NCBI GenBank assembly: GCA_943789105.1
Contig: CALSSW010000002.1
Span: 164,950 to 228,949, forward strand
Length of the DNA: 64,000 nucleotides
From: an uncultured Ulvibacter sp.
GTDB lineage: Bacteria > Bacteroidota > Bacteroidia > Flavobacteriales > Flavobacteriaceae
Direction of reading: 5' to 3'
Made by a program: the position numbers and the translations under genes. Under the pieces are notes generated by a model. The model was not told the DNA's origin and ran no database searches. It was given only the letters and a program-made list of their open reading frames with translations. Shown here one piece after another: positions 16,037 to 20,205 of this stretch. How positions within the stretch are numbered: position 1 is the first letter of the stretch; every line of letters starts with the position of its first letter.

Positions 16037-16789
16037 ATGAATTTTAAGTATCCGGGATTTTTTTTTATAGCGCTTATTTTCTGTGGGTGTACCTCAGAGA
16101 TATTTCAGCCCCAACCACGCTCTTTCTCTCAGGGAGATTTATCAAACTGCCTGTCAAGAGATTGCCCAAATATAGCTATTGATTATCTCTTTTATACTCC
16201 CCAGAACAATCGCGAATTACAATTAAACAAGGCTATAACTTCTTTTATTGCCGCGTCTCTGTACCTAGAAGACCCATCAAAAGAGCCGACGGCACTAACC
16301 ATAAATATTGCAGCGCAAGGGTTTGTGGATTCTTATTGGCGTGATCATGCAGAGTTTCCAGATTTGGCAGCAGAATATTTTGTTGAGGCCTCCGTAACCG
16401 AGACGCACAGAGATGAGATATTTTTATCCTTAGAATTTAAACTCTATAAATACACAGGTGGCGCACACGGCTATCGGGATGTTAGCTATATTAATTTTGA
16501 CAAGCAAACCGGTAAGGAGCTAACAAATCAAGCTCTTTTTAAGCATTATGATGCCCTTAGCGAGTTTGCTGAAATTGAGTTTAGAAAAGCATTTACTATT
16601 GCCCAGCAAAGCAGCATCAATGTTAATAACTTTTGGTTCAATGACAATACCTTTACGATGCCCTCTACCCTTGGATTTGTTCAAGACAGTCTGGTACTTC
16701 ACTACAATCAACACGAGATAGCAAGTTATAGAGATGCCCCTGTTATTGTAAGAATCCCCCTTGATCAGGTAAAAGCGTTTATGAAATAA
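16037..16789 (+). CDS. DUF3298/DUF4163 domain lipoprotein
   Basis: YTGGAHGYRDVSYINFDKQTGKELTNQALF typical of RsiV/DUF3298; lipobox FCGC. Confidence 0.8.
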   Translation: MNFKYPGFFFIALIFCGCTSEIFQPQPRSFSQGDLSNCLSRDCPNIAIDYLFYTPQNNRELQLNKAITSFIAASLYLEDPSKEPTALTINIAAQGFVDSYWRDHAEFPDLAAEYFVEASVTETHRDEIFLSLEFKLYKYTGGAHGYRDVSYINFDKQTGKELTNQALFKHYDALSEFAEIEFRKAFTIAQQSSINVNNFWFNDNTFTMPSTLGFVQDSLVLHYNQHEIASYRDAPVIVRIPLDQVKAFMK

Positions 16790-16900: not shown

Positions 16901-18313
16901 CTAAAACTTAAAACTTAACCCAGTGTACACCCCAAGGTAATAGGGCTTAAAACTCACAGAGGAGTCTGTATATGGATTTAATTGGTATTTAAACATTGGC
17001 TCTACATTAAGTCTAAACTTGCTTGACATTTTGTAATGCAGTCCAAGCCCTATGTTGCTAGCAAAGCTGATATCAGATAGGTTATTGGCAGACCCAAGAA
17101 CCTCATTGTAGCTGCCTGCGGTTACCGAAACCTCGTTATTTCCTAAAAGTAGTGTGCTAATACCTCCAATGACATCAAGGCCAAAAGCGCTGTCAAAAAG
17201 CGTGTAGCTTAATTCTAAAGGGACTTCGTAATAACTAATGTTTTGGTTTATAAAAGCATCACCGTTTGTTGATTTTGGTGTTATATCACCAAAAGTTCCG
17301 TCTTGGTTTTGACTAGAAAATGTCCCCAAATCTTGAGCTATAACTACAACCCCCTCACTGGCATAATCTATGGTTTTTAACGCCAAGGAGACTGGGCCGT
17401 CACCAAGTTCTATACCGCCAGTGCTATAGCTTAGCGCCACATTACTAATACCAGAGCGGATTTTTAATCTATCACTAAGGGCATAGCGCACCCCGATACC
17501 GTAGCTAATATTTACATCACCGCTTTGGGAGTTGTCTGCAAAACTAGCATCTATAGAAGACCCTTGGCTTAATGTGTTGTAATAAACGGGAGCGATGTTG
17601 GGCGCAATTTCCCAAAGATTGTATTTCGAAGATTTCTTGGCTACCGCCTCTTTAGACTCAAGCTGTTTTTGTTCCTTTATGGCATCAAAAATAGATGTTT
17701 TTTCGGGCGCGTTGGTGTTTGGTTTTTCAGCGGCAACTATTAAAGCGGTGCTGTTAGAAGGCGCTAAAGTCTTGGTGTCTATTATTTCTTTATTTTCTGA
17801 AATAACAGCGGATTTTTCTGGTTTTACAACTGCTACGCTCGAGTTTTTTGTAGGCATAACAAGCTCTTTTTTGATAGCTAATTTTACAGCCGATTTTTCT
17901 GGTTTATTTAAGACAATAATTTCGTTTTTTGACCTCTTAGGATCATTGACTTCTACTTTTGGTGTTATGGTCTGGTTTTGTGTGTCTTTATTTGTTGAAG
18001 TAACCAGCAGCTCGTCTTGCGGCAACCCTATTGTTTTGTCAATATTTGGGCCTGTGTTAGGGACCTGTTCTATATTTTGTTGCTGCTCAACAATGCTATT
18101 GTTTTTGGGGTCATTTAACAAGCTCCCTATAGAAAAGATAAATGCCAAGCTAGCCGCAACACCTGCCGCTCTCCACCAGATAGCAATAACACGATCTTTC
18201 TTATCTTTTTCTAAACGCGCCTGTATCTTATTCCAAACATGAGAAGCCGGAGCCGTCTGGTGATTTGCGAATCGTTCATTAAAGAGTTGGTCTATGTTCT
18301 TTTTTTGTTTCAT
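16901..18313 (-). CDS. Putative dual-membrane anti-sigma factor: anti-sigma-like N-terminus, TM helix, periplasmic linker, C-terminal outer-membrane beta-barrel
   Basis: N-terminal NIDQLFNERFANHQTAPASHVWNKIQARLEKDKKD then TM WWRAAGVAASLAFIFSIGSLL; ~170-aa K/E/T/P-rich linker; C-terminal PorT-like barrel ending ...GVYTGLSFKF; immediately downstream of an ECF sigma gene. Confidence 0.75.
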   Translation of the reverse strand: MKQKKNIDQLFNERFANHQTAPASHVWNKIQARLEKDKKDRVIAIWWRAAGVAASLAFIFSIGSLLNDPKNNSIVEQQQNIEQVPNTGPNIDKTIGLPQDELLVTSTNKDTQNQTITPKVEVNDPKRSKNEIIVLNKPEKSAVKLAIKKELVMPTKNSSVAVVKPEKSAVISENKEIIDTKTLAPSNSTALIVAAEKPNTNAPEKTSIFDAIKEQKQLESKEAVAKKSSKYNLWEIAPNIAPVYYNTLSQGSSIDASFADNSQSGDVNISYGIGVRYALSDRLKIRSGISNVALSYSTGGIELGDGPVSLALKTIDYASEGVVVIAQDLGTFSSQNQDGTFGDITPKSTNGDAFINQNISYYEVPLELSYTLFDSAFGLDVIGGISTLLLGNNEVSVTAGSYNEVLGSANNLSDISFASNIGLGLHYKMSSKFRLNVEPMFKYQLNPYTDSSVSFKPYYLGVYTGLSFKF

Positions 18314-18347
18314 TATTATGCTGTTTTTATCAGCAACGATTTATATA

Positions 18348-18920
18348 CTAGAGGATACTTTTGTTATAGTTGTCAATTTTTGTTTTTAAAATCCCTCTTG
18401 CTCTTGCTAAATTAGATTTTGAGGTTCCGTCACTAATCCCTAATAAGCTTCCAATTTCTTTATGAGAATATCCGTCCATAACATACATGGTAAATACCAG
18501 TCTGTATCTCTGGGGCAACTCTTGAATAATGCTAAGTAAATAATCAAGGGGCAGGCCATTGTCAATAATCTCTTGGTTTGCCGTATCCTCGATTTGCGCT
18601 TCATCATCTATAGCAAACACCTTTTGTTTTCTATATTTTTGAAGCACTGTATTTACAGTAATTCTTTTTATCCAACCCTCAAAAGAGCCCTTTTCTTTAA
18701 ACTGCTCAGCCTTATTAAAAATAGTAATAAAAGCATCTTGCAGGCTGTCTTCTGCCTCTACCTTGTTGGGAGAGTAGCGTAAACAAATTGAGAACAACAC
18801 ACCGCTATAGCGCTTATAGAGCTCTGCTTGTGCCTTAGCGTCCTTCTTTTTACAGCCTTGTATGAGTTGGTCTAAAGTCAAATGTAGTTGCCTTGGTTTG
18901 TTAGTAATTGTTTTACACAA
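18348..18920 (-). CDS. ECF-type RNA polymerase sigma factor
   Basis: Sigma-70 region 2 (ELYKRYSGVLFSICLRYSPNKVEAEDSLQDAFITIF) and region 4 (YSHKEIGSLLGISDGTSKSNLARAR). Confidence 0.93.
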   Translation of the reverse strand: MCKTITNKPRQLHLTLDQLIQGCKKKDAKAQAELYKRYSGVLFSICLRYSPNKVEAEDSLQDAFITIFNKAEQFKEKGSFEGWIKRITVNTVLQKYRKQKVFAIDDEAQIEDTANQEIIDNGLPLDYLLSIIQELPQRYRLVFTMYVMDGYSHKEIGSLLGISDGTSKSNLARARGILKTKIDNYNKSIL

Positions 18921-19084
18921 TACCCTTCAAATTAGTGGTTACTACACCAACTAGATGCTTGATTTTGAAGAGGGTTGCGTAGCGGTTTTTTTATAATAAA
19001 AACACTAGCGCGATTATAACGATTAAAAAAAGATTTTAATATACTTCCCTAAAAAATTAGTCGTTAAAACCAGCAAAAGATACT

Positions 19085-19191: not shown

Positions 19192-20205
19192 CTAAGCCTC
19201 TGCTAAGGTCTTGATACACTCTTTTATTTTAATTTCTAGCTCTTCCATAAGTTCTGGGTTGTCTAGCAGTAGTGTCTTTACGGCATCTCTTCCTTGCCCT
19301 AGTTTGGTTTCGTCATAACTAAACCAAGATCCTGCTTTTTTAATGATTTCAAAATCTACCCCAAGATCAATGATTTCTCCAACTTTAGAAATTCCCTTAC
19401 CATACATGATATCAAACTCAACCAATTTAAAAGGAGGGGCCACTTTATTTTTCACAACCTTCACACGTGTTTTGTTTCCTAAAACGCTACCGTTTGTATC
19501 TTTAATTTGAGTAGATCTCCTGATGTCTAGACGCACAGATGCGTAAAATTTTAATGCATTTCCTCCTGTTGTTGTTTCAGGGTTTCCAAACATAACTCCA
19601 ATTTTTTCACGCAACTGGTTGATAAAAATCACGGTGCAATTCGTTTTAGAGATTGATCCCGTTAGTTTTCTTAATGCCTGAGACATTAACCGGGCGTGTA
19701 GCCCCATCTTACTGTCACCCATTTCTCCTTCAATTTCACTTTTTGGCGTTAGCGCCGCCACAGAGTCAATAACAATAATATCAATAGCTCCAGAACGAAT
19801 AAGGTTATCTGCAATTTCTAGGGCTTGTTCTCCATTATCTGGCTGAGAGATGATTAAATTCTCTACGTCTACGCCAAGACTTTCAGCATAGTATCTGTCA
19901 AAGGCGTGCTCTGCATCAATAAAAGCTGCGATTCCTCCCTTTTTTTGCGCCTCAGCAATTGCATGAATTGTTAAGGTTGTTTTTCCAGAAGATTCTGGTC
20001 CATATATTTCAATAACCCGCCCTCTTGGATACCCACCAACGCCTAGGGCCACATCAAGACCTAGTGAACCAGAGGGTATAATATCAACATCAATGATGGC
20101 TTGGTCTCCCATTTTCATTACGGTTCCCTTACCATATGTTTTGTCTAGTTTGTCTAAGGTAAGTTTTAATGCTTTTAATTTTGCGTCTTTTTCTTTCTCT
20201 GCCAT
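19192..20205 (-). CDS. recA: Recombinase RecA
   Basis: [47 protein letters not shown]. Confidence 0.99.

Follow-up and report, generated by a model that had tools for sequence, protein, structure and literature searches.

The window, a stretch of 64,000 nucleotides from an uncultured Ulvibacter sp., carries on its minus strand recA (19192..20205), a gene for an ECF sigma factor (18348..18881) and a 470-codon gene (16901..18313), in that order and with 34 bases between the last two. The earlier note had described an ECF sigma gene followed by that of a 470-aa protein; both ORFs are present, and Pfam recognises regions 2 and 4 of the sigma factor (Sigma70_r2, 2.3e-16; r4_2, 1.1e-16). The open frame of the sigma gene extends to a TTG at 18920, but translation probably begins at the TTG at 18881, which gives a protein of 177 aa, because orthologues beyond the window's closest relatives begin there. 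On the plus strand, a convergent gene (16037-16789) encodes a PdaC/DUF3298-domain protein with a lipoprotein-like N-terminus; only the closest relatives retain it next to the pair. Of 80 named loci, 79 have recA upstream of the pair, and the contig of the remaining one is cut. We regard recA as a conserved neighbour and do not claim it as a functional part of the system.

A structure prediction of the full 470-aa protein, built with 79 orthologues in the alignment (AlphaFold, pLDDT 72 overall), recovers all parts of a putative dual-membrane anti-sigma factor. Residues 1-41 (18191..18313, minus strand, as are all parts of this gene) form two short helices, 7-15 and 24-36, in line with the earlier proposal of a cytosolic anti-sigma domain. 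The single hydrophobic segment of the protein follows as a helix at residues 45-63 (18125..18181), preceded by basic and followed by acidic residues in a positive-inside pattern that predicts an inner-membrane anchor. Residues 64-206 (17696..18124) make up a predicted periplasmic tether, with pLDDT mostly below 50 over about residues 69-203, a disordered stretch of ~140 residues. The earlier note had read this region as a low-complexity K/E/T/P linker; its composition is better described as rich in N, T, K, S and E. A predicted periplasmic helix with the sequence SIFDAIxEQK (residues 208-222; 17648..17692), seen in both model and alignment, lies just ahead of the C-terminal domain (residues 234-470; 16904..17614), an OmpA-like outer-membrane barrel ending in FKF. 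Its eight main strands run from 234 to 469 with pLDDT mostly above 90, and a long segment separates strands 283-307 and 353-374. A Foldseek search with the model retrieves OmpA barrels as its best PDB matches, with a TM-score of up to 0.74 on the target. Pfam finds only OMP_b-brl, at 2.2e-6, just under the cut-off.

This layout, for which the earlier note had pointed to the Dma proteins, matches their published definition: an N-terminal anti-sigma domain, a TM helix, a disordered tether and a C-terminal barrel, with an adjacent ECF sigma factor (PMC13088901). Cell-surface signalling of the FecR type was considered and rejected, as neither Pfam nor NCBIfam reports a FecR domain for the pair and none of the adjoining ORFs encodes a TonB receptor.

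Conservation was assessed over 80 sequences, comprising the window's protein and named flavobacterial orthologues. The majority frequency is 0.62 in the N-domain (first 41 residues), 0.58 in the barrel and 0.30 in the tether. P22 and W27 are invariant in the N-domain (80/80 rows), and every row ends in F, nearly always as [FY][KR]F or IKF, which extends the terminal Phe noted earlier to the whole set. The sigma gene lies directly upstream of the anti-sigma gene in all 80 named loci and in 40 of 40 others. These observations bear on the plainest alternative, raised in the earlier note as its own refutation, that the protein is an ordinary outer-membrane barrel with no regulatory role and that its hydrophobic segment is a cleaved signal peptide. 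The barrel is the only part that Pfam recognises, and an AXA-like triplet occurs near the end of the TM helix in 48 of the 80 rows. However, the N-region, 41 residues long and with P22 and W27 invariant, is unlike the n-region of a signal peptide, the pairing with the ECF sigma factor is strict, and relatives that lack the barrel retain the same N-domain and sigma factor. Since the N-domain is conserved like the barrel and the tether is not, and since both the terminal F and the upstream sigma gene are found in 80 of 80 cases, a cleaved signal is unlikely on sequence grounds, and we give the ordinary-barrel reading very little credence.

The barrel-less homologues (L065-L070, L292) are 224-273 aa long and adjoin related sigma factors, and the tree suggests that the barrel was lost or gained more than once among them. 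In three further proteins the anti-sigma N-domain is fused to vWA/YfbK_C domains, each beside an ECF sigma gene (L280:1939-4623, L284:3166-5289, L285:3925-6453); one of the three also has a TonB plug domain, so that the sensor part appears to have been swapped. Because the N-domain is found on both kinds of protein, each with a sigma factor, it behaves as a module that travels with the sigma factor. A mirror-tree comparison of distances shows no excess coupling between the two: the sigma factor correlates with windows of the barrel as well as with the N-domain.

The tether differs greatly in length among the orthologues. The region corresponding to residues 63-212 spans 117-321 aa in the 80 sequences, and its only conserved stretch is the juxta-barrel helix. 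From TM helix to barrel the distance is 133-339 aa, a contour of about 48-122 nm, of which even the minimum (~48 nm, 133 aa) is longer than a periplasm. Two alternatives assign the tether an active part. In the first, it would be cut constitutively during biogenesis to give a separate inner-membrane anti-sigma factor and an outer-membrane barrel. Cell-surface signalling offers known examples of anti-sigma factors that cleave themselves, and the tether should be cuttable because it is predicted to be unstructured. The absence of any conserved cleavage motif in the tether across the 80 sequences, where the juxta-barrel helix alone is conserved, speaks against such a split, which we consider improbable. 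In the second, separation of the membranes by blebbing or plasmolysis would pull the tether taut and release the sigma factor mechanically. One chain would indeed link both membranes, and in Bacteroides thetaiotaomicron loss of Dma, which represses its sigma factor, increases vesiculation (PMC13088901). Because the TM-to-barrel length ranges so widely, the orthologues share no common length threshold at which tension could act, and we judge a tension sensor to be quite unlikely.

Relatives of the 470-aa protein occur in 85 of 149 related genomes, so it is not a chance ORF. Within Flavobacteriaceae it is present in 75 of 90 genomes, and few genomes outside the family carry it at that sensitivity; a profile search across the class finds relatives in 226 of 295 genomes. 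The viral contigs searched contain no relative. Named orthologues include those of Patiriisocius, Ulvibacter, Aquimarina, Maribacter, Zobellia, Bizionia, Lacinutrix, Olleya and Kordia.

Upstream of the sigma gene lies a predicted autoregulatory ECF promoter, GCAACCCTCTTCAAAATCAAGCATCTA (18952..18978, minus strand), with the pattern GCAACC-N15-CATCTA. Counted with slight variation allowed in the last box, the motif precedes the operon in 74 of 80 loci, and near-matches occur in five more. The 2.1-Mb genome of the window contains only two perfect sites, against 0.18 expected from base composition: that of the pair itself and one before a 35-codon ORF (L096:5026-5133; C4 of the window's genome). 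This ORF encodes a single-TM microprotein that is conserved in related genomes, with a ratio of synonymous to nonsynonymous counts of 1.4 compared to 0.27 under neutrality (six sequences). Members of its family, 28-36 aa in length with a single TM helix and the pattern LL.FS.N..T.P, stand directly behind the motif at L096, L099, L151, L152, L154, L345, L359, L360 and L363. A weaker match in the window's genome (C1:500531) precedes a 125-aa membrane-protein ORF located before pyrG.

At other sites in relatives, the downstream gene encodes a lipoprotein in 24 of 54 distinct cases under a strict rule, compared to 1.8% at random positions; the 54 sites were chosen from a list as likely promoters, so this proportion should not be read as an unbiased rate for whole genomes. 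In 47 of the 80 loci a second site points away from recA, and it often leads into an ORF of 24-30 aa ending in C..[DE]GG. The synonymous/nonsynonymous ratio of these ORFs, 0.96 against a neutral 0.29, indicates that they are coding. They are divergent from recA, typically read M[KR]FFK...NCKADGG and lie before trhO (L135-L149, L161-L240; for example L204:1636 and L225:1616, minus strand); an NCBIfam scan of one copy gives no match. Judged from the motif, the targets are predicted to be mainly lipoproteins and the 28-36-aa microproteins. We infer that this sigma factor recognises the site, and in genomes with paralogous sigma factors the motif may be common to several of them.

An additional lipoprotein gene, encoding ~135 aa, lies between recA and the sigma gene in 58 of the 80 named loci (L182-L239). 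Counting strong matches only, it is found in 52 of 75 genomes of Flavobacteriaceae that have the pair and in 0 of 15 that do not (Fisher p = 3e-7); the window's own genus lacks it. A pLDDT-90 model predicts a confident beta-sandwich, and two cysteines are invariant besides the lipid-bearing one. The protein has no match in Pfam or, at E <= 0.001, among PDB folds. Its identification as NigD was rejected: the matches are weak and mostly to the signal peptide, and none is found in Pfam.

We consider it probable that the pair is a flavobacterial branch of the Dma/EcfO-Reo systems, in which the sigma factor is held until the outer membrane is damaged and is then released. Residues 1-41 would hold the sigma factor at the inner face of the inner membrane, where the TM helix anchors the protein, while the slack, disordered tether would cross the periplasm and the eight-stranded barrel would be inserted into the outer membrane by BAM. 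The sigma factor would stay bound as long as the outer membrane is intact and holds a folded barrel. Damage to the outer membrane, or failed assembly of the barrel, would expose the periplasmic part to proteases, possibly through the C-terminal [FY]KF signal itself, and the anti-sigma factor would be lost. Once free, the sigma factor would transcribe its own operon, as well as genes encoding surface lipoproteins and small peptides of the membrane. The most likely function, in our analysis, is that the pair senses outer-membrane integrity and regulates itself. Against this reading speak the lack of excess coupling between sigma factor and N-domain, the absence of the operon lipoprotein from the window's genus and of NigD1/2 from its genome, and the presence of just two perfect promoter sites in that genome.

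The barrel could instead act as a ligand-gated surface receptor, its loops binding an external molecule such as a glycan. A ligand of this type was proposed for Dma2, which affects polysaccharide utilisation loci in B. thetaiotaomicron (PMC13088901), and the model has a long segment between strands 283-307 and 353-374. However, no susCD genes adjoin the pair, whose family-wide neighbour is recA, and we think a ligand-gated receptor very improbable. By parallel logic, outer-membrane damage is our preferred signal because the pair of Phocaeicola vulgatus drives surface lipoproteins, as the flavobacterial pair is predicted to do. More tentatively, and with rather less than even confidence, we suggest that Flavobacteriaceae use the pair as their core sigma system for outer-membrane stress. 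It would be a counterpart of sigmaE/RseA in a single polypeptide, whose own C-terminal outer-membrane-protein signal would report BAM failure by misassembly, with a regulon largely of surface lipoproteins and two unannotated families of ~30-residue peptides.

Little is understood of how Bacteroidota detect damage to the outer membrane, and the only dual-membrane anti-sigma factors studied so far come from gut Bacteroidales. Most of the Flavobacteriaceae examined have a conserved version that is linked to recA and has a promoter readable from sequence; this brings the question to culturable marine genera and to named target genes. Under the motif stand two families of conserved coding ORFs of 28-36 aa, which are candidate components of a small-peptide response induced by stress.

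Profile searches place the flavobacterial pair within a known kind of system. Genomes carrying NigD1/2 have sigma/anti-sigma pairs beside nigD (L314-L318) that are found with the flavobacterial profile, and the search also links fused sigma-TM-barrel proteins with the layout of Dma3 (L319, L320). The barrel profile matches the nigD-linked, Bacteroidaceae-like set with 98.5% probability (E 3.4e-15), where the labels Bacteroidaceae-like, Dma1 and Reo rest on NigD and gene neighbourhood as a proxy for a by-name comparison with Dma1/2. A two-helix N-domain is common to both groups, and in a tree the window-type sigma factors, candidates for the ECF21 family to which the neighbours of Dma proteins belong, group with the nigD-linked ones, apart from two other ECFs. 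Because the nigD-linked pairs and the Dma3-like fusions are homologous by profile, the flavobacterial pair, on sequence, belongs to the Dma/EcfO-Reo kind.

Dma1/Das1, Dma2/Das2 and Dma3 of B. thetaiotaomicron share its four-part architecture and adjacent ECF sigma factor. In contrast to Dma, the flavobacterial pair is linked to recA, has its own promoter motif, which does not recur before the nigD-linked Bacteroidaceae-like pairs, and has other lipoproteins and microproteins as predicted targets. No NigD1/NigD2-family match is found in the window's genome (about 83% complete); with the NigD model, no genome of the phylum sample exceeds the cut-off, while genomes of the class sample do. BcpT and bacteroidetocin A induce the EcfO-Reo pair of P. 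vulgatus, which has nigD lipoproteins under its control, and the inducers reported for EcfO-Reo of Bacteroides fragilis and P. vulgatus are toxins, bacteroidetocin A and oxygen (PMC9308784, PMC13114119). Like EcfO-Reo, the flavobacterial system has an anti-sigma factor predicted to reach from the cytosol to the surface and, here by prediction, a pair that is autoinduced and a regulon of surface lipoproteins, although its predicted regulon genes are not nigD. Our literature search found no paper on the flavobacterial version, as the earlier note had supposed. As far as the literature found shows, the novelty lies in the family-wide linkage of the locus to recA, in its promoter and in the lipoproteins and microproteins predicted as targets, and not in the design, which was known before.

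In E. coli, the sigmaE-RseA-DegS system makes an ECF sigma factor depend on the state of assembly of outer-membrane proteins. The flavobacterial pair resembles it in proposed logic only, and we claim no homology to RseA or DegS. In contrast to that system, the reporter barrel and the anti-sigma factor would be united in a single flavobacterial polypeptide.
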